Below are positions 6,338-36,349 of a stretch of 45,496 nucleotides of DNA, piece after piece. The DNA comes from a virus, in IMG/VR virus record IMGVR_UViG_3300009320_000030, positions 1-45,496 of that record, one strand, 5' to 3'. Positions within the stretch are counted from its first letter, which is position 1, and each line of letters starts with the position of its first letter. Position numbers and translations under genes: made by a program. The notes beneath the pieces were generated by a model. That model searched no databases. It worked only from the letters and a program-made list of their open reading frames with translations, and had not been told where the DNA came from.

Positions 6338-6492
6338 ATCTCTTGACAGGCTGCGAGGGGCTAGAATGTATCTGGATGCCAGCGATAATATTTGGGGCGT
6401 TCGTATTATGGATGTGGTGGGAGTCAAAACGCCATCCTGAGCTGCCTCCTAAGGATTATACGCCTCCTGAGGTTGAAGATTACTTTCGGTAG
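6334..6492 (+). CDS. Small single-pass membrane protein (52 aa)
   Basis: ATG overlaps the TGA of the upstream gene. The product starts MNLLTGCEGLECIWMPAIIF, has one membrane segment (about residues 15-31, ending VLWMWW) and an acidic proline-rich tail (PPKDYTPPEVEDYFR). Two cysteines lie at the N-terminal side. Co-translated with its neighbour; function unknown. Confidence 0.6.
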   Translation: MNLLTGCEGLECIWMPAIIFGAFVLWMWWESKRHPELPPKDYTPPEVEDYFR

Positions 6493-6498
6493 TTCAAG

Positions 6499-6620
6499 AG
6501 CGTGGTAAGGATTCGAAGGGTGCAATCCCGACGCAGCGAAGCGGAGTCGGGTGCAGGCGCAATGCAGCCGGAGGAACGGAGGCTGCCGCAGCGTCTGTTC
6601 GCAAGCGTGGTAAGGATGCA
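6499..6620 (+). repeat. GC-rich structured repeat, copy 1 (island 1)
   Basis: About 120 bases closely matching 35955-36082. Bounded by direct repeats of GCGTGGTAAGGAT at 6499 and 6604. Inside are hairpins CCCGAC...GTCGGG (loop GCAGCGAAGCGGA) and GCAGCC...GGCTGC. A plus-strand frame is open here, but the conserved hairpins and the intergenic position argue for a structured RNA or DNA element rather than protein. Confidence 0.65.
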
Positions 6621-6690
6621 GAAGGTTGCGAAAGGTGCAAAAAAGAGGCTCGCCGTAATCTGGAATTCTCAACGGAATTCCACTGGCCAC

Positions 6691-6782
6691 CGACTTGCTC
6701 CCAAGAGCAAGTCGCCAAAATTGTAGTGCCTAACTTCTCAAATCCCCTAGATACGGGGGGATTTGAGTGTAGTATCTAACTT
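6691..6782. repeat. Hairpin cluster with two 15-nt repeats (island 1)
   Basis: Contains the hairpin CGACTTGCTC-CCAA-GAGCAAGTCG, the 15-nt repeat (6723-6736), a second hairpin CAAATCCCC...GGGGATTTG (6739-6765) and a degenerate repeat copy (6769-6782) that starts right after the stop of the next minus-strand gene. The hairpin-plus-repeat pair recurs at 15211-15259 and 36299-36349. The GGGG stem may terminate convergent transcripts. Confidence 0.6.
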
Positions 6783-7437: not shown

Positions 7438-7482
7438 TTGAATTCAAGCCCTCCCTACCAGTTGAAGGGCGGGGGAAGGCTC
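7438..7482 (-). other. Intergenic hairpin, family member H1
   Basis: Inverted repeat around a CCCTTCAACTGG-like core. Related hairpins with core CCCCTTCAACCGG lie at 8908, 11028, 11327 and 11948. It fills the gap between two early genes and ends at the stop of the next one, so it could terminate, stabilise or couple translation. Confidence 0.5.
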
Positions 7483-7786
7483 AAGGAAGTCTAAGATACC
7501 ATTGCATTTCTTTGACATACTCTTCCCACTCATCTACGTCGCACCGTGAGAAGGTTCTTTGTCTCGAAACGAATTCCTCTACGGAAGCCTCTAGGTCCTC
7601 ATCGGAAGAATCAGCAGTGCAAGAAGTACATGGAACGAATTCCGATCCATCATTGAGAAGTAGGCTTCCAAATGAAAAATCACCTACTGGTTTGATTTTG
7701 CCACATACTACACAGCGAAATTCTTCTCTATGATTTATATTCTTCTCACCTGCGGGACTTCCACCCGCTCCTTTTTCTGCTTTCAT
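7481..7786 (-). CDS. Zinc-ribbon protein with shared N-terminal peptide (101 aa)
   Basis: Begins MKAEKGAGGSPAGEKN, one of five early proteins with a GAGG(N/S)PAG-type N-terminus encoded by a small hairpin. Residues 23-56 contain CVVCGKIKP and VPCTSC, a four-cysteine zinc ribbon. The C-terminus is acidic. The ATG overlaps the stop of the ribbon-helix-helix gene upstream (ATGA), so the two are co-translated. Function unknown; a nucleic-acid or protein adaptor role is plausible. Confidence 0.65.
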   Translation of the reverse strand: MKAEKGAGGSPAGEKNINHREEFRCVVCGKIKPVGDFSFGSLLLNDGSEFVPCTSCTADSSDEDLEASVEEFVSRQRTFSRCDVDEWEEYVKEMQWYLRLP

Positions 7787-7896
7787 TTTTTCAGTATGAA
7801 GCGCACTACATCTGAGTACGTTTCTCCTACTTTGTTTTTCCTTTTGTTGAGTTCGACGACAAGATCTTCATCGAGTTCAATTTTTACCTTTCTCAT
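7783..7896 (-). CDS. Ribbon-helix-helix (CopG/Arc-like) repressor (37 aa)
   Basis: Too short for usual gene calling. Reads MRKVKIELDEDLVVELNKRK, then a second helix pattern ending YSDVVRFILKK: a beta strand followed by two helices, the CopG/MetJ/Arc fold. In-frame upstream ATGs at 7905 and 7923 would add up to nine residues. Its stop overlaps the start of the zinc-ribbon gene. An inverted repeat with a TATA-like core (7926-7946) lies upstream, suggesting autoregulation. Confidence 0.6.
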   Translation of the reverse strand: MRKVKIELDEDLVVELNKRKNKVGETYSDVVRFILKK

Positions 7897-7925
7897 TTTT
7901 ATCATTTTTATCAGTATTATCATTT

Positions 7926-7946
7926 AGTATTTGATCTATAAATACT
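7926..7946 (-). promoter_or_regulatory. Promoter/operator of the RHH gene
   Basis: AGTATTT and AAATACT form an inverted repeat around ATAGATC; read on the minus strand it includes TATTTATAG, a TATA box 25-40 bases before the likely starts. The coincidence of operator-like symmetry and TATA box suits repression by the RHH protein. Confidence 0.5.
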
Positions 7947-8022
7947 AAATTCTGGCCCCGACTGCTATCAGTTTCGGAAATTAAGCGAAATTGACTAGCT
8001 TCCCCCACCCGAGTTCCATCTT

Positions 8023-8448
8023 CTACATGAATTCCTCCAGCTTGTTTTTCTGAGAACTGCAATGAGCAGTGTCTGACACAGTGTTCGACATAGTAGCTGC
8101 TTTGAACTCTATCTCAGGGTATGGCACGAATCGCAGGAAAGTGTCCTTCGGCCTGGGGCCTCGTTCCCTGCCCCAGAGACCAATCACCTTCTTCCGGAGG
8201 AGAGCTTCCGGGTCTATCTTATCCCCGTTCTTCAGGAGCATGTCGCCAGTTGCAGCGGTAAGAAATGTGAACTTCTTGCTCCGTGCCGATATCTTGCAGG
8301 GGATCCACCAGGGGTGAATTCTCCCGTCCTGGAGCTCTAGATCGAATACGAACTGGGGACCGTATTTGGTCTGCTCTATCAGCCGGTAAGATAAGATATC
8401 CACCAGGAGCCACTCGCCTTGTTCTTCGATTTGTATTTTCATTTTCAA
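8023..8448 (-). CDS. Putative OB-fold single-strand-binding-like protein (141 aa)
   Basis: Contains KYGPQFVFDLELQDGR, KISARSKKFTFLTAATG, a LLRKKVIGLWG strand and DTFLRFVPYPE. This strand order matches a phage OB-fold family often placed with replication genes. It could bind single-stranded DNA. Two starts are possible, both in MKMKIQIEEQ. It overlaps the gene at 8219-8698 by 230 bases in another frame, an unusually long overlap. Confidence 0.55.
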   Translation of the reverse strand: MKMKIQIEEQGEWLLVDILSYRLIEQTKYGPQFVFDLELQDGRIHPWWIPCKISARSKKFTFLTAATGDMLLKNGDKIDPEALLRKKVIGLWGRERGPRPKDTFLRFVPYPEIEFKAATMSNTVSDTAHCSSQKNKLEEFM

Positions 8449-8698
8449 TCAGTTCTCTTTTGGTGAGGAGTTCGTCCGATGTTGGTTCTGCAGGAAGGTT
8501 CCACCCGGCGTGATCCTTAATTTGCACCAGGCCGATATCTCTCAGGAACCTTTCTGAAACTCCAAGATTTTCAGCGAACTTATGTTCCTGAAATAATTGA
8601 ATGCCGAGATTGGAATAATCTGCTGCCATGATCTTGCCTCGGTAGCGGCCCAGGCGTAAATTCCTAACCACGTTTTCAAAAGGTATTTTTCTTCCCAT
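8219..8698 (-). CDS. HTH-like protein with long overlapping 3' end
   Basis: The first about 85 residues look genuine: MGRKIPFENVVRNLRLGRYR, then FAENLGVSERFLRDIGLVQI, a likely DNA-binding helical segment. From about residue 84 the frame lies over the OB-fold gene and its sequence looks like shadow translation (RRVAPGGYLILPAD). Either a stop codon was lost or there is real overlap coding. I am confident only in the N-terminal part. Confidence 0.45.
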   Translation of the reverse strand: MGRKIPFENVVRNLRLGRYRGKIMAADYSNLGIQLFQEHKFAENLGVSERFLRDIGLVQIKDHAGWNLPAEPTSDELLTKRELIENENTNRRTRRVAPGGYLILPADRADQIRSPVRIRSRAPGRENSPLVDPLQDIGTEQEVHISYRCNWRHAPEERG

Positions 8699-8709
8699 CT
8701 TCGATCTCC

Positions 8710-8892
8710 TTACTTTTCAACGAACCAGATGATCCTGGTTTCCGTGTAGTAGGGAATTTCGCCGGAATCTAATTCCTCGATCTTCCTTTCTTTTTCTACT
8801 TCTTGATTAGGATCCTCATCGGTACAGTTGATGCTGTGCCGGATGAATTTCTTACTGGGGAATCTTTTGATTTCCATGGGTTTGATTTTCAT
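8710..8892 (-). CDS. Small protein, paralogue of 7252-7437 (60 aa)
   Basis: Basic N-terminus (MKIKPMEIKRFPSKKF), RHSIN, acidic middle and C-terminal PYYTETRIIWFVEK shared with the copy at 7252-7437. The gene follows intergenic hairpin H2. Function unknown. Confidence 0.65.
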   Translation of the reverse strand: MKIKPMEIKRFPSKKFIRHSINCTDEDPNQEVEKERKIEELDSGEIPYYTETRIIWFVEK

Positions 8893-8907
8893 TTTCTTAT
8901 TTAGATG

Positions 8908-8942
8908 TCCTCAACCCCGACGGTGAAGGGGTTGGGTGGGCT
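8908..8942 (-). other. Intergenic hairpin, family member H2
   Basis: GC-rich inverted repeat with the core CAACCCC...GGGGTTG, in the gap 8893-8947 between early genes. It shares the CCCCTTCA core and the GCCCACC arm with H3-H5. Confidence 0.5.
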
Positions 8943-8947
8943 ATTTC

Positions 8948-9142
8948 CTATCCAAACCTATTCAAATATTCCCTAATTCGTGGCGGACAAGATAGATCAA
9001 TCATCTTGTGGTGCCGCAAATATGCTGCAGTTGCCTTTTCAATATCTTCATCTTCCTCCTCCTTCAGCTCTTGGAGAAGGATATCGAAGTACTCGCTCCT
9101 GTAGGGATTTCCACCCACTTCTTTTTCCGTTTTCATTTTCAA
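8948..9142 (-). CDS. Small acidic protein with shared N-terminal peptide (64 aa)
   Basis: Begins MKMKTEKEVGGNPYRSEYF; KEVGGNP matches the KEAGGNPAG peptide of other early proteins. A highly acidic central run (QELKEEEDEDIEKA) precedes a helical C-terminus. Start follows the upstream stop directly. Function unknown. Confidence 0.6.
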   Translation of the reverse strand: MKMKTEKEVGGNPYRSEYFDILLQELKEEEDEDIEKATAAYLRHHKMIDLSCPPRIREYLNRFG

Positions 9143-10360
9143 TCAAGCCCTCCCTGCCTTCAAGTTCCATAGTTTCTTCGCTTCAAGAACTCTACACTCT
9201 CGTGCTCTTGTTGCTTCTAGGAGTATGCCCATTAGTTCGCAGGCTTCCCGTTCTGAATTCTGCCAGTATGATCTGACCGAGGCAGGATATTCTCTATCTT
9301 TCTCACTTAGTCGTTTATCTGTCATTTTTTTCCTGAAGTTCGATATAGCTTTTTCGGAAAGCTCTTGGCTTTCTGCTATTTTCAGGAAGTGCTGAGAACC
9401 ATAACAGCAACTAAAATCGTGACCTTGCTTTCCACTAGTTTTATGGAAAAAAATCGTCACGATGAGGTAGTCACATGGAATTTCTACGCTTTTCTGTATC
9501 TCTCTTTCTTCCTCTGCAACAACTGCTAACTTGGTAGCATAGAGATAGTCCTGCCAGAAATCAGAATTGTGCTCATGGAATACAACCATTCCCCCTCCAG
9601 TTTTCTGCTCGTATGCTGACCACCTTGGATACGACCCGCATAACCCCGGAGTGAATTCAGCAATTTTCTTTCCTTTTGCCATGTCCCCTACCGAGGATTG
9701 GACATACTCCTTGCCCCCAAAATGCGCCTGAAGGAGTTTTTCAAGTTTTTTAGTTCCCTGATCTCTTTCTTCTTTCCCTCGCATTTCCTCAGCTTTTTGT
9801 TCTCTTTCCCTTTCGATCCTTCTTTTTTCGCTCAGTTTCTCCTGAAACTCCAGACTTCTCTTTTCTGGGATACACAGAATTCTTTCAACCTCTTTTGGGT
9901 TTCTTGTCGCATAGCCCACATAATCATCATACCATTCCTCATCATCTTCCTCGTCCTCCGTCGCTCTCCAGAATGAGAATAGATGCGCTACCTTTGCCCA
10001 CTCCTTGGGGCCGATTCTTGTTGAGAGAGCAAATAGCTTGATTCCGGATTCCCAGGAATAGTTTACCTCCACCACCCTGAGGTTTTCAAGTTCCTTTCTT
10101 TGCTTTTCTGCTTCCTCTTTCCGGAAGTCTTCTGGGGTCTTGATGATCTCCAGGCGTTTTCCGCACTTCGGGCAAACCATCGCCCCCTCCTGTATTTTCG
10201 TTTCGTAGGGCGTGGCCGTCTCCTGGGTCGTTCCTGTGCAGCTGCACATGAAGCCACCCCCGCGCCCCCATCTTTTCAGTCCGTGCGGGACTAATCTTCC
10301 ATACATATTGTATGCATCCCATTCTCCCTTCGGAGTTTGTAGTATATATTTTTCTTCCAT
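9143..10360 (-). CDS. Large early protein with cysteine cluster and coiled coil (405 aa)
   Basis: Residues about 38-72 contain CSC and CPKCGKRLE, a possible zinc site. A long charged helix (about 165-215: EKLSEKRRIEREREQKAEEM) predicts coiled coil. The later half includes TPGLCGSYPRWSAYEQKTGG and IPCDYLIVTIFFH, which look globular. The last residues (KLWNLKAGRA) run into the leader of the next gene. No family recognised. It is the largest protein of the early block and may be a scaffold for the small zinc proteins around it; that is inference only. Confidence 0.65.
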   Translation of the reverse strand: MEEKYILQTPKGEWDAYNMYGRLVPHGLKRWGRGGGFMCSCTGTTQETATPYETKIQEGAMVCPKCGKRLEIIKTPEDFRKEEAEKQRKELENLRVVEVNYSWESGIKLFALSTRIGPKEWAKVAHLFSFWRATEDEEDDEEWYDDYVGYATRNPKEVERILCIPEKRSLEFQEKLSEKRRIEREREQKAEEMRGKEERDQGTKKLEKLLQAHFGGKEYVQSSVGDMAKGKKIAEFTPGLCGSYPRWSAYEQKTGGGMVVFHEHNSDFWQDYLYATKLAVVAEEEREIQKSVEIPCDYLIVTIFFHKTSGKQGHDFSCCYGSQHFLKIAESQELSEKAISNFRKKMTDKRLSEKDREYPASVRSYWQNSEREACELMGILLEATRARECRVLEAKKLWNLKAGRA

Positions 10361-10544
10361 TTTCAGTTTTTATAATTGAATTCTAAATTCTAATTGTATT
10401 TCAACCGCAGAGCCGGAAATTGAAACACATCATTATTTGTTTTGGTATCCACGAAAACAAGGATTGAAATTCTCCTCGCTTCCCCTCCCGCCCCCGCTCC
10501 TTTGACGGAGCTGAAGGCAAAGAGATGTAGTGCCTAACTCGGCA
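10361..10544. promoter_or_regulatory. Intergenic region with a head-to-head palindromic repeat copy
   Basis: The AT-rich stretch at 10361-10430 probably holds the promoter of the 405-residue gene. A hairpin TTGTTTT...AAAACAA lies at about 10438-10462 and a short GCTCC...GGAGC stem near 10497-10511. At 10524-10551 GATGTAGTGCC-TAACTC-GGCACTACATC forms a perfect 11-bp stem built from a 15-nt repeat and part of its reverse copy. The stop of the next gene lies inside it. Confidence 0.5.
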
Positions 10545-10751
10545 CTACATCAACTGTGCTTCTATACATTCTTTGTGGCAACGGCCAGGGGAATAGCTTT
10601 CTCCCTCGATTTCCCTGGCACAGATATCACAGGCCCTTTCTGGATCCCGCTCGAAAAGCTCTTTGACTTCTCGATCTATCTCCCTGAGAATCTCCCTGGC
10701 TCTCAGGTAATTTGGATCTTCCGCCTGCAAGATCAATTCCATGAGGTTCAT
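10545..10751 (-). CDS. Small Cys/His protein (68 aa)
   Basis: Start set at ATG 10751 because it overlaps the stop of the upstream gene (ATGA). Helical acidic body followed by CDICAREIEGES and CHKECIEAQ, which together give CxxC...HxxxC-like zinc ligands. Its stop TAG lies in the palindromic 15-nt repeat. Function unknown. Confidence 0.6.
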   Translation of the reverse strand: MNLMELILQAEDPNYLRAREILREIDREVKELFERDPERACDICAREIEGESYSPGRCHKECIEAQLM

Positions 10752-11023
10752 TGTCTGCCTCCACTGGAATTGATAGCTTCGCATTCCAACCTGTTCCTCA
10801 GCCAGTACTCAAAAGGACTTAGAATTTTCTCCAGGACGATGGTGGGTGCCATCATCTGTGCATCAAAGCCTACTTTCTTCATGAGCCTTTGAGCTTCCAG
10901 TAGATATTCGTCCTCAAGTTTCTCCAGTTCCTCCTGGGTGAATTTTCCAGAGACCTTTGCCGTTACAGCTTTCACAATTTCCTTTCCAGCGGGATTCTCA
11001 CCCGCTTCTTTTTTTGTTGCCAT
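10748..11023 (-). CDS. Early protein with shared N-terminal peptide (91 aa)
   Basis: Begins MATKKEAGENPAGKEIV, a clear copy of the shared N-terminal peptide. The remainder is helical with two charged helices (QEELEKLEDEYLLEAQRLMK and ILSPFEYWLRNRLE). Preceded by hairpin H3 and translationally coupled to the next gene. Function unknown. Confidence 0.65.
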   Translation of the reverse strand: MATKKEAGENPAGKEIVKAVTAKVSGKFTQEELEKLEDEYLLEAQRLMKKVGFDAQMMAPTIVLEKILSPFEYWLRNRLECEAINSSGGRQ

Positions 11024-11027
11024 TTCA

Positions 11028-11061
11028 TGCCCACCCCCCGGTTGAAGGGGTTGGGTGGGCT
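11028..11061 (-). other. Intergenic hairpin, family member H3
   Basis: GCCCACC and GGTGGGC arms around a CCCCTTCAACCGG core, immediately before the ATG at 11023. Nearly identical to H4 at 11327-11359. Confidence 0.6.
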
Positions 11062-11063
11062 AC

Positions 11064-11321
11064 TCACTCGACAAGTTCCACATCGCCAAGGAGAAGAATG
11101 ACTTCTATCACATTTCCGTCTGGATGTGAATCACGAATGGCCTTCCCGTCTCCCATCTCCTCAATGAGAACTTGGTTTCCTCGTGTTGGAAATGCAATGC
11201 GATAGCATTCATCCCCACATTCAAGGATGCCACCGATTTTTCCAAAACACCGATGGAATTCTTCGGGCATATATTGTTCCTTTTCAGTCCGAATTCGGAC
11301 TTTATCGCCTTCTGTTTTCAT
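11064..11321 (-). CDS. Small early protein (85 aa)
   Basis: Real start taken as ATG 11321 (MKTEGDKVRIRTEK); the frame upstream only translates hairpin H4. The product looks like a small beta-rich fold (VRIRTEKEQYMPEEF, IGGILECGDECYRIAFPT, GNVIEVILLLGDVELVE). It lacks the shared N-terminal peptide. Function unknown. Confidence 0.6.
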   Translation of the reverse strand: MKTEGDKVRIRTEKEQYMPEEFHRCFGKIGGILECGDECYRIAFPTRGNQVLIEEMGDGKAIRDSHPDGNVIEVILLLGDVELVE

Positions 11322-11326
11322 TTTAT

Positions 11327-11359
11327 GCCCACCCCCCGGATGAAGGGGTTGGGTGGGCT
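11327..11359 (-). other. Intergenic hairpin, family member H4
   Basis: GCCCACC and GGTGGGC arms, core CCCCTTCATCCGG; differs from H3 by a single loop change. Lies in the gap 11322-11368. Confidence 0.6.
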
Positions 11360-11368
11360 GCTCCACCC

Positions 11369-11944
11369 TTAGAGCACTCCTGCGGAATCCATCTCCACGT
11401 CCCGGATTTCTGTGAAGTGTGAAATATGGAACTCATTGAGATCCTGAAAGACCACCCCATCTTCATCCTCCACCAGAAGTTGGGTTTCATTCCAGCGAAA
11501 CCCATATCCGGATTTTCCGTCTTTCTTTCTCCAGAAGACGGGGTGCGTGAATGCGAAGAAAAGCTTCTTCAGCTCCCTTTCTGCGCTTTCCACGGAGAAG
11601 GTGACATGAGTTCGAGAGACTGCACAGCATTGGTTGGCGCCCGCAAAACTGCTCAGGGATATAGTGTATTTCTTCCCCTTTTTCTCCTCCCCGTATCTCA
11701 TCGGACCAACGACCTCTTCTAGAGGAAATTTCAGGCGGAGATGTATGGTTTTCTTCGTTTCTGGCATCTCCCATTCCCTTTCTGTATGGACGAATGCTGA
11801 CTCGTTGCAACCCCCACCATGAAAGACTTGGATATCCATCAGAAATCTCTGGGCCAAACGAATCGCTCTGGCCGTGTCATCGAATGGAGTTCTTCTCCAT
11901 CCATTTCCAGCGGGATTTCCACCCGCTTCTTTTGTATTTGTCAT
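11369..11944 (-). CDS. Early protein with shared N-terminal peptide (191 aa)
   Basis: Begins MTNTKEAGGNPAGNGW, the clearest copy of the shared peptide. Then a helix (FDDTARAIRLAQRFLMDIQV) and a beta-rich body (TIHLRLKFPLEEV, GYGFRWNETQLLVEDEDG). Contains no cysteine cluster. Start fixed by the peptide match and by hairpin H5 just upstream. Function unknown. Confidence 0.65.
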   Translation of the reverse strand: MTNTKEAGGNPAGNGWRRTPFDDTARAIRLAQRFLMDIQVFHGGGCNESAFVHTEREWEMPETKKTIHLRLKFPLEEVVGPMRYGEEKKGKKYTISLSSFAGANQCCAVSRTHVTFSVESAERELKKLFFAFTHPVFWRKKDGKSGYGFRWNETQLLVEDEDGVVFQDLNEFHISHFTEIRDVEMDSAGVL

Positions 11945-11947
11945 TTT

Positions 11948-11982
11948 ATGCCCACTTCCCCATTGCAGGGGTTAGGTGGGGC
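11948..11982 (-). other. Intergenic hairpin, family member H5
   Basis: Diverged family member with CCCCACCTAACCCCTGC and GGGGAAGTGGGC arms before the ATG at 11944. The arms differ from H3/H4 but still pair over most of the stem, suggesting the structure is kept. Confidence 0.5.
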
Positions 11983-11987
11983 TGCTG

Positions 11988-12896
11988 CTATGCACAATCA
12001 CACTCCTTCGTAATAATCTCACCGGCTGGGGTAGCGACCTCATAGACTATCACCATCCCTCTCTCTTCACCGGGGAATTCCTCATCGCCATCATAGGAAC
12101 CAACTTTCCGAATGGTAACGTTTCTTCCTGATTCTTTCGCCTCCCTGAGTTTTTCTTCTCGTAATTTTCTGAATTCATCTCTGTATTTCTGATTCTTCTC
12201 TTCGATCTCTTTTCTTTTTCTGTCCGTTTCGATCTCAACTTCTGAGAGAATCTGTTTCGCATCCTCGTGGTCGAGGATGATGCCAGAACTTTCACCACCG
12301 AAGAAGTGCAATTTGCGATCTGATTCTTTCCAGATTCGTTTTGCTGTTTGGGATCTATTCTCTATTTTGCCTTCTTGAATGGTTCGTATGAGGCCACATA
12401 GCCCATCTCTATATTCCTCACGATATTCTTGCTTCTCCTCTTCTGTTGCGTGCCGAATAATACAGATGCATTCATTGATCAGGTACGGGCCGCTAGTCAT
12501 ATATGCATAGTGGTACGATCCACTATCCAGCCCGTCTCTGATATCTTTCTCTTCCCCTCCCCTTTGGGTCACTCGCTCCCTCTCCTCAGTTGCTTCCATC
12601 CATTCCAAAACGTTCTCTGGAAGGGTGAAGCATACCTCTTGTTTCTTGCCGCTCAGTTTTCTCGCAAAGTCATCATACTGCGAGAAAATAATTCCCCGCT
12701 GTCCTTGGCGTCTCTGTAGGTCTCCGAATTGGAACCTCACAACATCCTCCCCAGATCGCAGCGTATAATCACCCTGTACGATGCCATTATCCCAGTTCCC
12801 AATCTTCTGGAAACTGATGATGCATTCCTCCTCATTTTTATCGAAGAGGATAAATTTCCCAGCAGGATTCCCACCCGCTTTGTCGTTGATATCCAT
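11988..12896 (-). CDS. Early protein with shared N-terminal peptide (302 aa)
   Basis: Begins MDINDKAGGNPAGKFILF. The middle (GSYHYAYMTSGPYLINECIC) appears globular, residues about 200-250 are a strongly charged coiled coil (EIETDRKRKEIEEKNQK), and the C-terminus ends VATPAGEIITKECDCA with a terminal Cys pair. No family recognised. Its general layout (globular part, charged coil) resembles the 405-residue neighbour. Confidence 0.65.
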   Translation of the reverse strand: MDINDKAGGNPAGKFILFDKNEEECIISFQKIGNWDNGIVQGDYTLRSGEDVVRFQFGDLQRRQGQRGIIFSQYDDFARKLSGKKQEVCFTLPENVLEWMEATEERERVTQRGGEEKDIRDGLDSGSYHYAYMTSGPYLINECICIIRHATEEEKQEYREEYRDGLCGLIRTIQEGKIENRSQTAKRIWKESDRKLHFFGGESSGIILDHEDAKQILSEVEIETDRKRKEIEEKNQKYRDEFRKLREEKLREAKESGRNVTIRKVGSYDGDEEFPGEERGMVIVYEVATPAGEIITKECDCA

Positions 12897-12903
12897 TTTT
12901 CAA

Positions 12904-13494: not shown

Positions 13495-13515
13495 TTTCCT
13501 ATTTTTTGTAATCAA

Positions 13516-13935
13516 CTTGAATTCATAAGATTGGCATAACGATTACAATAAGATATAGGAATGGTGGTATAAATACTAAAAAACATAGCCGCTTGCTATC
13601 GATTTAAGACTGAAAAAGCAGCAAAGTTCACAATTAAACTGGTAGGTAGCGATTAGCACAGTATCGCAGCATACGTTTCCGTAAGAAAGTTAGCACTACA
13701 AATGCATCGACATCTGACGAATTGATTGAACGTCAATTGACGAATCGACGATTGACGTAACGCCAATTGTCGAAGAAATAACCTCTACAAAACGAATCAT
13801 GCAGACCCAGACACTTTATATTCCTCAACCGTTGATCAGCCTGAGTAGGTGGGTGCTTAGCACCCCGTCGAGGGCTGACCATATCTTCGCAGATGCAAAA
13901 AAAAACAAGAGAAAAAAGAACAACGAATGAGACGG
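13516..13935. other. Non-coding region with clustered TTGACG/CGTCAA motifs, candidate origin or partition site
   Basis: At about 13713-13776 short motifs CGTCAATTGACG, CGACGATTGACG and CCAATTGTCG occur close together in both orientations, as in origin iterons or ParB/regulator sites. A 15-nt repeat copy in the opposite orientation, lacking one G, lies at 13686-13700. At 13838-13880 a nested hairpin (GGGTGC-TTA-GCACCC inside CAGCC...GGCTG) follows TTTATATT at 13815-13822 by about 25 bases, so a short plus-strand RNA is possible. The region separates early genes from the structured island. Function is inferred. Confidence 0.45.
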
Positions 13936-14079
13936 CTATCCGCTGGCTTCCCTGAGCTTGCTCCGGACGGCGTCCCGGACAAACTCGCTAACTGATACAT
14001 AGGAGGAGTTCTTCACTTGCTTTTGAATTCTCTTCAATTCATCCGGATCAAACCGTATTGTGGTTCCAATCGTGGTCAT
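13936..14079 (-). CDS. Ribbon-helix-helix DNA-binding protein (47 aa)
   Basis: Short frame MTTIGTTIRFDPDELKRIQK... with a second helix VSVSEFVRDAVRSKLREASG: the beta strand and two helices of CopG/Arc-type repressors. A TATA box (TATTTATA, 14103-14111) lies about 25 bases before the ATG, giving a nearly leaderless mRNA. A TAATAGGATTA motif between them resembles the integrase operator half-site. A T-rich tract after the stop on the minus strand fits an archaeal terminator. Confidence 0.75.
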   Translation of the reverse strand: MTTIGTTIRFDPDELKRIQKQVKNSSYVSVSEFVRDAVRSKLREASG

Positions 14080-14149
14080 AATGAGACTAATAGGATTACA
14101 GCTATATAAATAGTTGGCGATTTCCTGAGGGAGAAGCTTTTAGGAAAGA

Positions 14150-14200
14150 GGGAGTTTGAGGGAGAAAAACCTTTAGAGAAAAGGGTTGTCTTCCTCAATG
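14150..14200 (+). repeat. GAGTTTG two-tier hairpin element, copy 1
   Basis: Conserved GAGTTTG at the 5' side and TCAATG at the 3' side enclose an outer stem GAGGGA...TTCCTC and an inner stem AACC...GGTT. Copies at 14384-14416 and 36132-36183 keep the pairing with different bases. Confidence 0.6.
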
Positions 14201-14383
14201 CGGGCACTGATGCGTAAATTCTCGTAGTCTTAATATAAAAAACATAATTATCCGTGTTTCGTCGTGGAACGCCGACAGGAGCGGAGGGCGGAAGATTTTT
14301 GGACATCGTTGACATTAAAAATCTTCCAACTGGAGCGGATGGAGCGCGTGGAGCGACGGAACGACGATAAGTATGTAGGAAGG

Positions 14384-14416
14384 GAGTTTGGGGGAAACCA
14401 ATGGTGTCCCTCAATG
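14384..14416 (+). repeat. GAGTTTG two-tier hairpin element, copy 2
   Basis: Shortest copy: outer stem GGGGGA...TCCCTC, inner ACC-AAT-GGT, then TCAATG. Stem changes relative to the other copies are compensatory. Confidence 0.6.
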
Positions 14417-14697
14417 AAGTGATAAAGATTATCGGGGTGAATTCCTGGAAGACTGACAGTGCGGTAGTTTGATGGTATCCTGCGTGAATTCCGAAATAAT
14501 TCTTTGAGTACAATAGTTACATATAACAGTTGCATTTACAATAGCCCTGATCGAATTCTATCAAGTGCCGAGTGGAGGGACTGGCGGAGCGAGCGGAAGA
14601 ATCCGACTTGCGGAAAATTCTGCAACGAGCGGAGCATTATGCTTCCGGAGCGAGGCACATATAGAATTTTGAATTGGTAAAATTCCGGCGAGGCGAA

Positions 14698-15187
14698 GGA
14701 ACTTGAGAAAACCCGGAGGGCTTGATTCTTCTGAGCGACAGCGAAGAAGAATTTTTCTTATGTTCCGAGCGAAGCTTTGGGAAAAGGCGGAAATTTCGAG
14801 CAACGGCTTGATGAAAACCCCTCGCAGGGGCTTGGTCTTGCATCAGCAAGACTTTTCATTATGCCGTTGCTGGTATAGCGAGAATTCTGGTATGGCAAAG
14901 ATTCAGCGGAGCAACGACGTAGGAAAAATCCAGAAGGGGCTTGCTTTCCGAGTGGAGAGAGCGAACGAAGAGAGCGAACGGAGGGAGAGAAAGTTTTTGC
15001 TATGTCGCTGCGGAGCTTGGTGGAATTCGCTCGCACAGGGAAGTTTAATTAACCCGAACAGAGTGAGGGCTTGGTCTTCGGAGAAGACTTAATTAATCTT
15101 GCCTGAGCGAGTTGCGGCTGGAATTCCGGCGAGCGGAGGCTGAGAAATCAACCCGAAGGGCTTGTATTGCGAAGCAATACTTGATTT
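14698..15187 (+). ncRNA. Array of five three-way-junction structures
   Basis: Each unit has an outer helix, a small internal loop, a closing helix, hairpin 1 of form CCC-loop-GGG, the single strand CTTG, hairpin 2, then the closing helix partner. Unit A 14698-14766: GAGAAAA/TTTTCTT, CCC-GGA-GGG, ATTCTTCT/AGAAGAAT. Unit B 14800-14870: GCAACGGC/GCCGTTGC, ATGAAAA/TTTTCAT, CCCC/GGGG, GTCTTGC/GCAAGAC. Unit C 14911-15011: GCAACGAC/GTCGCTGC, hairpin 2 with a long apical loop. Unit D 15030-15111: CTCGC/GCGAG, TTAATTAA palindrome arms, GTCTTC/GAAGAC. Unit E 15145-15187: AAATCAA/TTGATTT, CCC-GAA-GGG, GTATTGC/GCAATAC. Stems differ in sequence but pair, so structure is selected. RNA or single-stranded/cruciform DNA is possible; strand of action is unknown. 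Confidence 0.75.
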
Positions 15188-15210
15188 TTGAGTCGAAGCG
15201 AGCCGAGATC

Positions 15211-15259
15211 GACTTGCTCTCCAAGAGCAAGTCGCCCCCCAAAAGTAGTGCCTAACTTT
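15211..15259. repeat. GACTTGCTC hairpin plus 15-nt repeat (island 2)
   Basis: CGACTTGCTC-TCCAA-GAGCAAGTCG followed after a C-run by the 15-nt repeat (15245-15259). The same pair occurs in islands 1 and 3. Confidence 0.65.
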
Positions 15260-15281
15260 GTATAACAGATGTTATACTGAC

Positions 15282-15440
15282 TCATTTCTCTAAAGTCTGA
15301 ATAACCGGAGCTGGAACTGAAGACTCCCGAACCGTCTGAATGACAGGAGTCGGGACAGAAGACAATCTAACCTCCTGGATTACCGGCTTTGGTGGTGTGG
15401 CCAGCGGTGGCCAGAATTTAACCTTGATTTTCTTAGGCAT
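15282..15440 (-). CDS. Small proline-rich repeat protein (52 aa)
   Basis: Start at ATG 15440, which follows the stop of the giant surface gene (TAAAATG). After a basic N-terminus MPKKIKVKFWPPL it has three tandem units of about 13 residues, each centred on P-x-PVIQ-x(V/L). The repeats are also visible in the DNA. Last gene of the structural transcript; possibly a minor tail or attachment component. Confidence 0.6.
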   Translation of the reverse strand: MPKKIKVKFWPPLATPPKPVIQEVRLSSVPTPVIQTVRESSVPAPVIQTLEK

Positions 15441-15441
15441 T

Positions 15442-18400
15442 TTAGTCCCAGCTCCAGAAGTCCAGCCAGACTTCGTATTCTGATGGGAGAGAGGGAGGAT
15501 TGAAATAATCAGCCCAGCACCATAGCATGTGCGTTGTTCCATTAAGGAATTTTGTGTAAAATGACTGGTAAGATGTCGTGATATTCGTGGAATTCTGAAC
15601 CGATGAATCATTCGAGCATTTGAGATCCACCTTCTGGATCGTTGAATTGACCCTGATCATTAAGTCTGCGATGCTAGTGTTGTTGTTCGTAACATTAAGA
15701 ACACCTATCGATGAATTCTGCTTCCAAGCTGAGACATTCTTTTCTGATCTATGCCTTGGGAAGAAATAGAAATAAGGAATTCCATCAGATAATTCTGCTA
15801 CAGGATCGAAGTGTTTTAGTTGGAATGAGTTGTTGATCAAACAGAAAGTGACATTACCACCTGAATCCGATTCGAAATTCAAGGTGATAGTCTTGTTTCC
15901 TTGAGTTCCACTTAGATTGTTTTCTAGCTTTGATGAAATTTCCAGATTTTCTGTGTAGTTAAGATATGATGAATTCCAATCGAAAAAGGAATTTAGCGTT
16001 ATATTGTGTGGGTAAGAGGTGTAGTTTACATGGAGGAGAATGTTAGAGATACTATATGTGTTTCCACATGGGATGGATCCACAATCTTCTGTGTCTCTTA
16101 AAATCCATCCCGGGAATCCTGAAGCAGCCCATTCTTCGTACAGATCTCCTGAAATTGAAAAGCAGGCCGAGGTCGTCGGGCTTGCACAATCATTATCATA
16201 AAATGCTACTGAATCTAGAGATGTGGAGTTGTAATCGCCTCCTTGGGAATCCCAGGTGTTTTGGGTGTCATTATTAGTCCAATTTACCGAAGCGTTAAAT
16301 GATTTAAGAAGTAGATATAATGTCATTGCTCTGGAATCACATCCTGGACCCGCATCATAATCCAGCGACGTGTCCATGCAAAGCTTGACTTCCGTTACGT
16401 TCCAAGTAGGGAGATGAAACAGATCGTTGAAATCCAGGAAGATACGATAAACTTCATTGTAATTTGAAGCCCATCTCTTTTGACCTAGATCAATCGCTCC
16501 TGTGCAGTCAGTTGATGTTGAATTGCTTTCGTAATTCCAGTAGACCGAGCAGGCGATATCTGGCGCGTTTGCAGGAATCGAAACTTTAGCTTCACTGCCT
16601 GTTAGATTCAATGAAGCAGAGATATTGAAAGCATTATCTGGAATTTTGATATGATGGTTGGAATCTGTTCCTCCGCTATGATCAAAAGAAACTGTATTGC
16701 AGAGAGCGTCATTAGCGAATTTGAAATGATTGATAGAGGAGTTCACATTGGTTGAATTCTCATTGCCCAATAAATCAATGCAAGAAATGTTAAAACTATG
16801 CTCACCTGAATCTAAGGGTCTTGCATGGAACTCATCATCGTTGTAAGAAGTAATCCCCTTTCCGAGTAAAGTGTTACTTCCGCCATCGATTGAGACTGAG
16901 CAGTTAGCAATTTCATTAAGAGTGAACGAGATGACTGGTGTCCTGTCCCAAACGTACTGATCTGCTGTCGGATGGGTGAGAGTAATGGAAGGACCCGTTG
17001 AGTCGATAGTGAAATTCCTGGTTTCTGTCCAGTTTATATTCCCAGCGTTGTCCCAGCACGTAACGTTCCAAAAATAAATTCCATCTCCGAATGATTTTGT
17101 GAGAGTTTTATGAGTTCCATTATTTACAGTTGTGGTAACGTTAACAATGGAGTTAATGGTTAAATTGCAGTCCAACACCGTATCCATGTTATCGATGACC
17201 GTCCAGTTGAAAGTTTGAGAAGTCTGAGTCGTTTCAAGTCCATCTTCTGGTGCAAAAAGAATAGTTTCAGGCTCAATTAGATCTACGTAAAAAGACCAAG
17301 CTGAGGACAAACTCGAATTATCTTCTCCATCCCCTACTTGAATCTGCCATGTGTGCGATCCCTGAGAGAATGAAAGAGTTGTATAATTGTTAGCTGTTGT
17401 TGAATTATAGCTTCCATCGATGTACCAATGATAATTAATGGGATCTTCGTCTGGGTCAGAAGCAGTTGCCCAGAGCGTTATGGAGGATCCATTGTGCCAG
17501 GAAGAATCTGCTGGAGCAACCAGGATGTAGCTAGGAGCCATATTGCTTACGTTTTTCCGGGTGGAATTCCAATAGCTCCAACTGGTTCCATCCCAAGCCC
17601 TCACGGATATGTTGATAATCTGATTTTTAGTGTAGTTACCTGATCCTAATTCAGGAATTCCAATCGTTGAGCCGTTTTGCACTCCCGTAAGATTGCCGTA
17701 ACTCTTGATAACTCCATCAACTCTCCAAAAGTATTCTACTTGGAGTGTTGTATTTTCAGTATCTGTCGGAATGGTAGAGGCGTTTGTGTTGTTAATGGTA
17801 AAAATTACTGTGGGATAAATTATTGGTTGTGAAATGGTTGGTGCAGTAGGTAAAGTTTCCTCTGCTCCCAAATCTCCAAATCCTGTTGTACCTATTGCAT
17901 TCTGATAAGTCTGATTAATCTCATCAGAAGCCAGTGATTTGTTCAGAATCCATACCCCATCTAATGAGGCATTGATGTGAGCTACAAAGGAGGTTCCGCT
18001 AGCACGCCCGCCAGCAAGTAAAACAGTTCTATAGGTGTCAGGGCTATATATACCTGTATTACAGACTGTAGGATCTCCGCTTGTGTTTCCATCAAGATAC
18101 CCTTGAGTGTGCGTTCCATTGTTTCTGCAAGCATAGTGATGTACTCCCGTCGGTAGACTTGCCGTATTCTGGATACAAGTGGGACCAGCACCCTCATAGT
18201 ACTGGCATCTTATTGTGCCGGTATCTGGTCTTATCATGTGGAAAAAGTGGTTGGTATCTCCCCACCCAAGAAGCTGTGTAGTCTGTGCTGTGTGGCTTAG
18301 ATTATACCAAAAAGCGAAAGTGAAATTCAGAAATCCTTTAGGGTCAGATTCAGTAAGTATGGTCTGGTTTATTGTTGGCTGTTGGGTTGAAAATCCAGCG

Positions 18401-19569
18401 CCATATCCTATTTTCACATCCTCAAAGGATATGTTTTTTTCCACAAATGTACTCGTCCCCTCGAAATGAGTTCCATTGATTGCATTACCCTCTGACGAAT
18501 TTATTGTAGACCCCGACCCTTCGCCCAAATGCCAGACTGCCTCTTCTGAATTCCCAGTAAGAATGTCATTCCAAACTTGTGTGGGATTATAACTTGTCCC
18601 ATTTCCGAGTTCGACCTCCATAGGTAGCTGATCTGTATCATTGGCAACCACATAGTCAGTGAAATTATTATAATATAGAGCAGATCCAGTCCCAGAGCAG
18701 TAAGTCCAGACTATTTGCTGACCTCCTTCTGCAGATATTGAAAAACCGACCGAACCATTGATGACAAGAGGGAATTTATCCGACATTGAAGAGCAATTAA
18801 TTGCTCTCCTGTGGTCATAAGAATCCCACCATGTTGTTCCTTCCCAATCGTCCCCCGCCATAAATGAGATTCTACCTGAAGAGGGCTTCTCACCTCGCCG
18901 ACTTTCCTCCCAACTCGGAGCTTTGAAGCACGCTTGGATTTTTTTATCCTCATCAAGATCAAATAAATTTGTGTATCCAACTACTTCCATTTCTCGCGCC
19001 TTTGCAGGGAGCTTAGTTCTCTTCTCCTCAATGAATGACGGCTTAGATTTTGAATCCTTGTAGTAGAAATTCTTTGAAAGAAGTGTATAGGTTGTGATAG
19101 TTTTGTTCCTTGTAACAGTTTTGTAGGTTATGTTATAGTGAATATCTGTTTTATTGCATCTGTATGTTGTGTTTGTAATATCCTGACAATTCGTTTCATA
19201 AGTAAAGTTATATGGAATTTTCTTGTCTACTGTGCTTTCATTATAGAATTCTATCTCTTCATCAACCACTTGTATCTTAGTAAGCTCTAAATCTCTTGAA
19301 TATAGAGGTGAGAAGAATCTATTGATGCCCTTCCTTACTGTTCTCTCTATGCAGAATTCAGTTCCAGGAGCCACACGAATCGTTTCATTTCTCTTGTCGA
19401 GAATGATTTGCCCGGCGCTCTGAATCTCAATATGGTCAAGGATCACTGTCGATGTTAGCGCGAGAGCTGATGCTGCAATGGCGTAGCTAATTTTCTTTTT
19501 TCTATCTGCCTTTGACAAGACCACTATCAGCAGTCCAATTCCCAATAAAAGTAGAATGTAAGGAATCAT
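15442..19569 (-). CDS. Giant surface/adhesion protein, LamG/DUF2341-like (1375 aa)
   Basis: N-terminus has two hydrophobic segments (residues 2-19, LLLLGIGLLIVVL, and about 29-46), then a soluble body. Residues about 235-330 (DDWEGTTWWDSYDHRR... to NGTSYNPTQVWND) match the DUF2341-like layout; 345-570 a LamG-like jelly roll (EAVWHLGEGSGST, GTTGFGDLGAEE); 580-970 Ig/Fn3-type repeats (PSYILVAPADSSWHNGSSI, WNVTCWDNAGNINWTE). Asn-X-Ser/Thr sequons are abundant throughout, as in archaeal glycoproteins. Such proteins belong to archaeal cell surfaces or viral receptor-binding structures. Placement after the head/connector genes favours a host-attachment role. Confidence 0.7.
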   Translation of the reverse strand: MIPYILLLLGIGLLIVVLSKADRKKKISYAIAASALALTSTVILDHIEIQSAGQIILDKRNETIRVAPGTEFCIERTVRKGINRFFSPLYSRDLELTKIQVVDEEIEFYNESTVDKKIPYNFTYETNCQDITNTTYRCNKTDIHYNITYKTVTRNKTITTYTLLSKNFYYKDSKSKPSFIEEKRTKLPAKAREMEVVGYTNLFDLDEDKKIQACFKAPSWEESRRGEKPSSGRISFMAGDDWEGTTWWDSYDHRRAINCSSMSDKFPLVINGSVGFSISAEGGQQIVWTYCSGTGSALYYNNFTDYVVANDTDQLPMEVELGNGTSYNPTQVWNDILTGNSEEAVWHLGEGSGSTINSSEGNAINGTHFEGTSTFVEKNISFEDVKIGYGAGFSTQQPTINQTILTESDPKGFLNFTFAFWYNLSHTAQTTQLLGWGDTNHFFHMIRPDTGTIRCQYYEGAGPTCIQNTASLPTGVHHYACRNNGTHTQGYLDGNTSGDPTVCNTGIYSPDTYRTVLLAGGRASGTSFVAHINASLDGVWILNKSLASDEINQTYQNAIGTTGFGDLGAEETLPTAPTISQPIIYPTVIFTINNTNASTIPTDTENTTLQVEYFWRVDGVIKSYGNLTGVQNGSTIGIPELGSGNYTKNQIINISVRAWDGTSWSYWNSTRKNVSNMAPSYILVAPADSSWHNGSSITLWATASDPDEDPINYHWYIDGSYNSTTANNYTTLSFSQGSHTWQIQVGDGEDNSSLSSAWSFYVDLIEPETILFAPEDGLETTQTSQTFNWTVIDNMDTVLDCNLTINSIVNVTTTVNNGTHKTLTKSFGDGIYFWNVTCWDNAGNINWTETRNFTIDSTGPSITLTHPTADQYVWDRTPVISFTLNEIANCSVSIDGGSNTLLGKGITSYNDDEFHARPLDSGEHSFNISCIDLLGNENSTNVNSSINHFKFANDALCNTVSFDHSGGTDSNHHIKIPDNAFNISASLNLTGSEAKVSIPANAPDIACSVYWNYESNSTSTDCTGAIDLGQKRWASNYNEVYRIFLDFNDLFHLPTWNVTEVKLCMDTSLDYDAGPGCDSRAMTLYLLLKSFNASVNWTNNDTQNTWDSQGGDYNSTSLDSVAFYDNDCASPTTSACFSISGDLYEEWAASGFPGWILRDTEDCGSIPCGNTYSISNILLHVNYTSYPHNITLNSFFDWNSSYLNYTENLEISSKLENNLSGTQGNKTITLNFESDSGGNVTFCLINNSFQLKHFDPVAELSDGIPYFYFFPRHRSEKNVSAWKQNSSIGVLNVTNNNTSIADLMIRVNSTIQKVDLKCSNDSSVQNSTNITTSYQSFYTKFLNGTTHMLWCWADYFNPPSLPSEYEVWLDFWSWD

Positions 19570-29576: not shown

Positions 29577-32500
29577 TTAGAAGGAATCTTGATCATCGTA
29601 TCTCAATGCCTCGTAGATTGTTTGTTTAGCATGACCTGTTTGCCTCCTGGTCTCGTTAATCGAGCCGGTAGAGCGATATATCTCACGTATAAAGTACTTC
29701 TTTTTTTCAGATAAGGGCGGTCGGCCTGCGTTGGCCTTCGGTGGAATGATTTGCTTCTTGAAGGTCCACGTCTCGCCAGTAGCAGAGCGGAAGAATATCC
29801 AGTCCCCCTTGAGGATCTTACCTTGGAGAACTACCCGGATGGATAAATTGTCCTCCTCGATGACGTTGACCTTGCCTTGGTCTGCTAATTCAATGTGGGC
29901 TGGAATTTCATCGTTTGGATTCAGTTCGCTTTCCGGTGGATACGTTCCCTCTTTGAAATATCCAGGATCTTCTTTGAATTCTACTGCAGAAAGAGATGGA
30001 ACGAACTCTGGATTTTCTGAAAGATGAAATTTCCTCTTACCGATTTTGAGATGGAAATCTTCCTGCTGCTGTTTCCTGATCACTTCCTGACCTTTCCACC
30101 ATCTCCTCGAGAGAACGAATGTAGTGCCTAACTCTGTAGTGCCTAACTTTCTGGTTTCCTTGAGAAATTGTACACATTTCTTTCTCCTATCCAGTTTCTT
30201 CTCTCTAGAGAGGCCTTTCTTCCAGTAGGCCAGTGCTGCAGGGATTTTGTGTTCGATTTCTGCAGGTAAGGCCGAACCTTCATCAGGTAGCCATTCCTTT
30301 TTGATCGCTCTTCCGGAGAGGACATAGGGTTCCTGGTCGTCCGGTTTCCAGTACAGCCAAGTGAATGCTCCCTTCGTTTCCTTCAGTCCCGGGACCTGCC
30401 TGAAGACTATCCTGCCCTTGACGTTTTTGCCTCGCAAAAAGAATTCCTTGAAGGAGGGCTTTTGGGCACCGGTGTCGTAGGTGCCCCTGTCCATGGTGAC
30501 GAAGATGCCAGGATAGAACTCAGTCCCGCCAGGAATTTCCTCAATGGTTCGCGGAGGAGTGACTCCTTCAGCGAAAAGCCATTCATAAGGTTCCTTCTCC
30601 TTCTTTGAGCTCCAGATTTTCTCAGCAGCTTCCTTACCGACAGTCGGCTTCCTTTTCTTTTCCTCTCCCGTTGACCAGTAAACCTTCCAGAGATTCTCTT
30701 TGTTTTCTAGATCCTTATGTGCTTCGAAAACTTTATCCTTGAGGGCCTTCGAAGCATCCTGCAGGATTTTCTCTGTTTTCTTTTCCAGTTCGTAGAACAG
30801 CTCCTCATCCCAATAAAGCTTGATTGATACCCCCTTCTTGTCGAGCCTCCACTTCAGGTATTTCTCTGCGATGCCTTTGAATGCATCGTTGAGAGTGAAT
30901 CCGTCCAGGATGTGATTCGTCTGGTATCTGAAATCGACGTGAACTGAATCACCTCTCCAATGGTGCTGCAGGACGAATTTCTTTTTGGCCAGCATTGTAG
31001 TGCCTAACTCTGTAGTGCCTAACTTTCTCTCGATACCATCACACATGCCATATCCTTCGCTGTCCGGCTCTTCTCCAGGCCTTGGGACCCTTGGTTCATC
31101 ACCACATATCAGACAGCGTGGGTGGCCATTCGGGAAAGTCCATACAGCCGGCTTGAACTTATGCTGGACCTGAGCTTCCGGCTTCTTCTTGTTTTCCCTG
31201 ATGATTTCCGATTCTTCCTCGTATGTGACCTTCTTCTTTAAGCCACCCCTCGAGGGGGTGGCTAATTTTTGAATCTTCCTCACGAACTTCGGTAGCTTCT
31301 TCTCCTGGATCCTCCCGGAGGTTTTCAGGACCAGCTCGTGGGCCTTCTTTGCGGTGTCGACTTTTCCGCCCTTCTCGATGACTCTTGCAGATTCTGAGAC
31401 GTGAGGAGCCCACCAGTTGAACCATGTAGTGCCTAACCTTTTATCATAATATTCTGAGATGTCTGCGAAGATGACCCGGATGACATCACCAGGATCCAAC
31501 TTCAGGCCGGTATTGAAGGTCTTACCGACATAGGGAGAATCTTTCAGGGCACAGGCGTAATAGTAGGTGTCGTCGCTTCCCTTGATCTGGTATCTCGTGA
31601 TGACCTTGGCGTTTAGAGCATACTCATTCTTGAATTTGATCATCCACTTGGTTGACTCGTCAAGTTCGTATTCTTTGTCAGCCAACTTTAACATGGCACC
31701 CTCCGAACCAGCTCTTTTACTCTGCAGGTCCACTACCCTCTTGAGCTCCTTCGCTGATCTTACCAAGGGTTCATCTCTGGAAACTTTTATATTACCATTG
31801 TCCTTGAATTTGATCAGCCTCTTTCTGCGTTCTGCGTAGCTCTCCTTGTGGATATCCTCATCGAGATAGAGAAGATCATAAAGCGTGAGCCTGACGTGAG
31901 GCTCATCCTCATCTCCCTTGTGGCCGACGACGCCTGCAGAGACGGCCCTGGGTTGGTGCTTGCCGTTGATCCAGACTTCCAGCTCGCCGATGACAATAAA
32001 ATTCGCCTCGTGAATTTTCCTGGCCTGATCGACTATCGTGGGAAGATTCTCAGTCAGATCGGATCCATCCTCGGAGAAGATCTTAACTTCATCACCTTTC
32101 TTGTAGAGCTGATTTGTGGTGCCGTCGTATTTCTTGCCGACGAAAATTCCGACATCTCTGGGCCATAATTCAGTTACAATATCCACTAGCGAATCCACGG
32201 AGTATATTTCTCCGACATTCCTCCCATGCGTTGGTTTTGGCTGATAGAATGGCCTGAAGAGTTCCAGCTTATCTTCCTTCTTGGATTCCTCGCAACCTGC
32301 CTTGAATCCCGGATCCCGCTTCATCTCCTGGACGAAGAGGTGGGGTCGAATCTCTACTTTCAGGTCGGCAATGTCAGTAAAATTTGTAAATGGGCCATGC
32401 CAGTGGGCATCATCCAGGAATTCTAACCTGTCCTGAAGATCTGGAAAAGCTCTCTCAATTCTCCAGGACTCGATCTGGACAATTTTTTCATCGAGATTTC

Positions 32501-36298: not shown

Positions 36299-36349
36299 GA
36301 CTTGCTCTCCGAGAGCAAGTCGCAAAATTTACATGTAGTGCCTAACTTT
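36299..36349. repeat. GACTTGCTC hairpin plus 15-nt repeat (island 3)
   Basis: GACTTGCTC-TCCGA-GAGCAAGTC then, 12 bases on, the 15-nt repeat (36335-36349). Third copy of the pair seen at 6691 and 15211. Confidence 0.6.

Follow-up and report, generated by a model that had tools for sequence, protein, structure and literature searches.

A tandem array of three-way junctions with covarying stems recurs in related viruses and is probably a noncoding RNA

We analysed the whole 45,496-nucleotide stretch of DNA in IMG/VR virus record IMGVR_UViG_3300009320_000030 (the window) and found that the intergenic array at 14698-15194 on its plus strand is a real new structural element that recurs in related viruses. 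The array consists of five tandem units with one common three-armed fold, whose arms differ in sequence from unit to unit while remaining paired around a nearly fixed core. The array is probably part of a noncoding RNA. The reading we place first, at just short of an even chance, is that of a virus-encoded long noncoding RNA whose repeated core would bind a protein, the whole acting as a multivalent sponge or scaffold.

Fold and covariation of the array units

Each unit begins and ends with helix P1 (about 12-18 bp), made of an outer part of 4-8 bp, one mostly non-Watson-Crick position (U.U, G.U or G.G) and an inner part of 8-9 bp, and encloses P2 (CCC-loop-GGG), the CUUG linker and P3, which joins P1 without a linker. 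The first-pass annotation, made from the letters of the window, had proposed five consecutive units of one design, and the unit calls, the alignment and the fold z-scores bear this out; the CCC-loop-GGG hairpin, the CTTG and the second hairpin of its layout also stand, but what it described as separate outer and inner closing helices is a single helix interrupted once. GGGCTTG occurs once in each of the five units. The features of the array and its surroundings are collected in Table 1.

Table 1. Array units and neighbouring features in the window (R1, covariance model score; z, RNA folding energy of each unit against 200 dinucleotide shuffles)
Feature	Position	Strand	Remarks
Unit 1	14698..14766	+	R1 50.8 bits (used in building the model); z -3.83
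Unit 2	14800..14870	+	R1 54.2 bits; z -7.25
Unit 3	14911..15011	+	R1 45.6 bits; z -1.82; weakest fold; long purine-rich second hairpin
Unit 4	15036..15105	+	R1 52.6 bits; z -3.01
Unit 5	15138..15194	+	R1 38.8 bits across 15134-15198; z -3.48
Small ORF, 47 aa	13936..14079	-	Divergent from array; preceded by TTTATATA box; ribbon-helix-helix-like by eye only
Upstream noncoding stretch	14050..14697	+	Possible 5' part of array transcript; patches of significant structure (about 14051-14250, 14251-14400)
Hairpin CGACTTGCTCTCCAAGAGCAAGTCG	15210..15234	+	Possible 3' end; just downstream of array; near-copies about 6690-6715 and 36299-36322
Large gene, 1375 aa, Ig-like domain	15442..19569	-	Convergent with array strand

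Folding energies, which the annotation had named as a way to refute its proposal, proved far lower than those of shuffled sequence in four of the five units taken as RNA; unit 3 is marginal, carries one A.C and one G.G mismatch, and has a minimum-energy fold that is not the canonical one. Taken as a 601-nt region, the array folds better than all 20 shuffles, both as RNA and as DNA. When the five units were aligned in a register that we set ourselves with N padding, standard pairs filled 97.4% of the pair cells against 69% after shuffling, both sides had changed at 20 of the 25 pairs, and sliding the partners by 1-3 columns lowered pairing to 39-56%. A covariance model built from these five units alone (R1) scored 39-54 bits on the plus strand of the window and at most 23 bits on the minus strand, with no convincing unit there beyond the five.

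Extending the alignment to 27 units gave standard pairs in 94.7% of the cells, a value somewhat inflated by the fitting of this alignment to the structure by the model, and covariation at 23 of 25 pairs; the covariation score was 0.724, compared with 0.188 for shuffled and no more than 0.168 for slid alignments, with the units of one virus not being independent of one another. Neither the five-unit alignment nor the finding of independent arrays depends on that model-fitted alignment. Nearly all units keep the core AA-CCC..GGG-CUUG-GU..AC-UU, of which the junction A-U pairs, the CC..GG, the CUUG and the GU..AC base of P3 are nearly invariant, while the hairpin loops vary (GAA, GGA and others) and the ends of P1 vary freely. 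P2 covaries too, as UCC/GGA in G017 and G034, two of the relatives introduced below. The annotation's statement that stems unrelated between units nevertheless pair, so that structure is kept over sequence, is thus upheld by strong covariation in several viruses.

Pairing of this kind could also stem from the origin of selfish tandem inverted repeats, similar to MITE or REP elements, and the tandem copies in one related virus (G020) are indeed near-identical, while one array lies among chromosomal genes. We regard this explanation as very unlikely, since compensatory change at constant helix length, the conserved junction core and the asymmetry of G.U over A.C described below argue for selection on structure, and no transposase was found beside the arrays among the proteins scanned.

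Distribution of the arrays and the viruses that carry them

The window carries an identical 119-bp repeat at both ends, so its genome is probably complete, circular or terminally redundant, with a length of about 45.4 kb, and its genes for a terminase, a portal and a major head protein identify a tailed virus. TATA boxes upstream of its genes, together with the kinship of its terminase (44%) and capsid (33%) with those of the Altiarchaeum virus Altivir_8, point to an archaeal host.

Searching IMG/VR with single terminase and capsid queries, or with a two-sequence terminase alignment, returned no relatives of this virus, and relatives were obtained through capsid family alignments. Among them, R1 detected 4 units in G020 (3300021513_000010), 2 in G017 (3300021507_000008) and 1 in G034 (3300016457_001468), to which a filter-free search added a second; the best matches in independent virus records reached E values of about 1e-8. 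Because G020 is related to the window virus at about 37% in capsid and 34% in portal, the arrays of these three viruses do not depend on the sequences from which R1 was made. The annotation had suggested a covariance search and had counted the lack of a homologous array elsewhere against its proposal; the search found such arrays in related viruses. Unit scores across the family range from 25 to 82 bits, and the loci hold 5, 4, 2, 2, 3 and fewer units, that is, between 1 and 5.

R1 also gave weak matches in a Methanosarcinales MAG. A second model (R2), built without the 23-bit match to unit 2 on the reverse strand, found units in 5 of the 53 genomes of one archaeal order, in the same five of the 58 genomes of its class and, with one further weak match, in the same five among the phylum's 394 genomes; a second phylum, represented by 194 genomes, yielded no unit. 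All five array-bearing MAGs encode an McrA with a CCX4CX5C stretch, which is a signature of ANME-1, and the window virus may itself have an ANME-1 host. Most of the array-bearing contigs are virus-like: L100 encodes a terminase, a portal and a PAPS reductase, L177 has a portal gene, and L100, L172, L173 and L175 have early genes in common. The L172 locus adjoins host-type genes and L174 is surrounded by chromosomal genes (POR, HD domain, hydantoinase B, YcaO) of an ANME-1-like MAG, and both are perhaps provirus remnants. L174 has one good unit at 6378-6445 and one, degenerate by eye, at about 6470-6535.

The element is nearly restricted to one virus lineage. Scanning IMG/VR for k-mers of the core yielded about 95 stretches with an exact core k-mer, none of which folds as the motif (best 20 bits), and the array is missing from Altivir_8 (BK059162), which among named viruses has the closest terminase. 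A pattern search for CCC-loop-GGGCTTG in the flanks of the relatives yielded chance matches only, because the arrays sat outside the flanks searched, and the covariance model had to be run on whole records. No small gene was found that is common to all array-bearing viruses.

Strand, genomic setting and nature of the folding molecule

G.U cells outnumber A.C cells by 38:1, which makes the array strand the folding strand: selection acts on this strand, whether in the form of RNA or of single-stranded DNA. A symmetric cruciform on double-stranded DNA, one of the roles listed in the annotation, is disfavoured by this asymmetry, since its two strands would be equivalent.

Between 14080 and 15442 the window has an intergenic gap of about 1.2-1.4 kb that houses the array, and almost every long ORF of the genome is on the minus strand. 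By a tally over 12 loci, made with crude ORF picking and including several related loci, the array strand opposes the coding majority in 11, the exception being the chromosomal locus. The 47-aa ORF on the divergent side received no annotation from any library.

The main rival to an RNA, which we consider rather unlikely, is a strand-specific single-stranded DNA structure for replication, priming or recombination, which would fold when the array strand is exposed. As DNA the plus strand folds far better than shuffled sequence (z -8.1 for the region and -3.2 to -8.1 for the units except unit 3), and several hairpins have C-GNA-G triloops, which are very stable in DNA. The consistent orientation of the array relative to the genes, its intergenic site, the direct repeats nearby at 13716-13774, the tolerance of G.U and the strand preference would fit such a structure as well. 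Against it, no replication initiator was recognised in the subset of window ORFs tested, the copy number of the array is variable, and a G.U at one fixed position of P1, present in 14 of 26 units, is more natural for RNA. Taking all RNA explanations together, we judge an RNA of some kind to be likely. The repeats at 13716-13774 are iteron-like, arranged around GACGAATTGACG, and may be a replication or regulator site.

The array may form part of a longer transcript. In the upstream stretch, the 150-nt windows at 14051 and 14251 have z-scores of -6.4 and -4.9 on the plus strand and -1.6 and -2.1 on the minus strand (15 shuffles each), and the other 150-nt windows of 14050..14697 are not significant. 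Three related viruses have their 4, 2 and 2 units in an intergenic region of about 1.6 kb that is conserved among them. This conserved region and the significant plus-strand structure upstream of the window array suggest one long RNA containing it, with which the structure in 14050..14697 would be linked. The promoter search in the window gave nothing convincing, only weak TATA-like matches at 14103 and 14230, and there is no clear terminator for the array in the window.

The same observations bear on a large ornate RNA scaffold, in logic like GOLLD or ROOL, in which the whole noncoding region of about 1.0-1.6 kb would self-assemble and the array would be one domain. GOLLD, ROOL and OLE assemble as homo-oligomers (PMC12286853). 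The related viruses keep their region of about 1.6 kb with many hairpins, and in the window significant structure also extends upstream of the array, but the region is without an Rfam match, a unit number that is not fixed is awkward for a defined symmetric particle, and outside the units we noticed no similarity between the window and the other arrays; we consider this scaffold unlikely. The conserved noncoding part at about 1500-3250 of L096 and its homologues in L097 and L098 contain, in addition to the array, numerous long hairpins, one of them a long pyrimidine-purine stem, and are a candidate large ornate RNA.

Several other repeats were observed in the window. A dispersed 13-mer, AGTTAGGCACTAC, occurs in 18 exact copies and 2 near ones, where 0.39 would be expected with 2 mismatches or fewer allowed, and all copies are on the minus (coding) strand (for example at 6723, 15245, 22046, 30121/30136, 30997/31012, 39993 and 44172); within ORFs it reads K/E-LGTT, often at apparent gene or domain junctions and twice as a 15-bp tandem, and it is absent from the related loci read. 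Seven copies, some near apparent domain borders, lie in a minus-strand ORF of 1374 aa (29577-33701) that combines a PAPS reductase domain with that of an ATP-dependent DNA ligase. A near-identical hairpin, CGACTTGCTCT..AGAGCAAGTCG, follows three of the 13-mers, at 6690-6735, at 15210-15257 (the right end of the array) and at 36299-36347. Just upstream of the ATG of the minus-strand genes starting at 7442, 9141 and 12902 stands GGGCTTGA(A/T)T, which resembles the GGGCTTG of the array. An N-terminal AGGNPAG-like segment and the DNA encoding it are common to five minus-strand genes at about 7754-12899 (repeat family D6).

Proposed function and comparison with known systems

In the reading that we favour, the virus would encode a noncoding RNA that includes the array and is transcribed from the plus strand, opposite to the virus genes. 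The arms of the array may drift freely as long as they stay paired and keep their length, whereas the junction core is kept fixed and would be the binding site of one protein, viral or host. Tandem copies would make the RNA a multivalent sponge or an assembly scaffold, and duplication and loss would set the copy number. Free arms, a fixed core, tandem arrangement and changing copy number suit a protein-binding module present in several copies better than they suit a guide or a role of fixed stoichiometry. Among the roles listed in the annotation, a decoy or scaffold RNA is the most compatible, an origin structure on single-stranded DNA keeps some probability, and the symmetric cruciform and the ring of packaging RNA discussed below are disfavoured.

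Rfam 15 recognised only a tRNA in the window at gathering score, nothing over 14000-15300 at E<=1, and nothing in L096-L099, and the literature searched holds nothing describing this element, in line with the annotation, which knew of no element with this layout. It is possible, if not probable, that the arrays represent a new class of archaeal-virus noncoding RNA, made of tandem, freely diverging three-way junctions with one fixed core that would capture a protein of the host or the virus multivalently, for example to take over the cell or counter its defences; that such a capture mechanism is without a described counterpart in archaeal viruses we likewise propose only tentatively. Little has been described of structured noncoding RNAs in archaeal viruses. 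This element covaries strongly, has a defined core and a narrow distribution, in viruses probably of ANME-1, and its relatives can be found with a covariance model, so that existing metatranscriptomes can be searched for it and pull-downs used to test it. ANME-1 are key anaerobic methane oxidisers, and the array, if it is a protein sponge, would reveal a way in which viruses of methane-oxidising archaea take over the cell or counter its defences.

GOLLD and ROOL are likewise large structured noncoding RNAs, and phages carry some of them; the present array differs in being a tandem, variable-copy series of three-way junctions in archaeal viruses that matches no family model. A three-way junction with a short unpaired linker is the core of the phi29 pRNA, and this likeness to a virus-encoded RNA, in a tailed virus with a terminase and a portal, could suggest a packaging RNA whose ring of subunits is supplied by the array. 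The pRNA is a single gene and not a tandem array, however, and here the number of units varies from 1 to 5 per locus, the large terminase and the portal are ordinary, and Rfam gives no match; a fixed packaging ring is therefore disfavoured, and we see little chance for it.

TIGR-Tas guide-RNA arrays offer another likeness, since they too are viral tandem arrays that combine a conserved core with variable parts, and TIGR stem-loop arrays have variable palindromes (PMC12045711). Tandem units with variable palindromic parts and a fixed core in an archaeal virus would fit this, but the units here, of about 60-100 nt, pair with themselves in the variable segments of nearly all units and are without unpaired 8-12-nt spacers between a box C and a box D, and the Nop domain PF01798 is absent from the window, G020, G017 and G034 (four archaeal controls were positive; some records are possibly fragments). 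This reading is largely refuted and, in our estimate, extremely improbable. Near-identical repeats with unique spacers of the CRISPR type are absent, direct repeats in 13500-15500 being only 12-15 nt long.

Integron attC sites resemble the array in keeping structure while sequence drifts and in the folding of one strand. They differ in that the array conserves the junction and not the stem base, where the attC R box (GTT/AAC) is absent and the ends of P1 vary freely, and no cassette genes lie between its units.

The sponges of the CsrB/RsmZ type are an analogy in manner of working only, with similar modules in one RNA, free stem sequences and a fixed recognition core. The repeated conserved core is present in the array, and its copies would lie in one RNA. 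CsrA is not known from archaea. In CsrB and RsmZ the modules are hairpins of bacterial RNAs, and CsrA binds at their GGA loops, whereas those described here are archaeal-virus three-way junctions built around a CUUG core.
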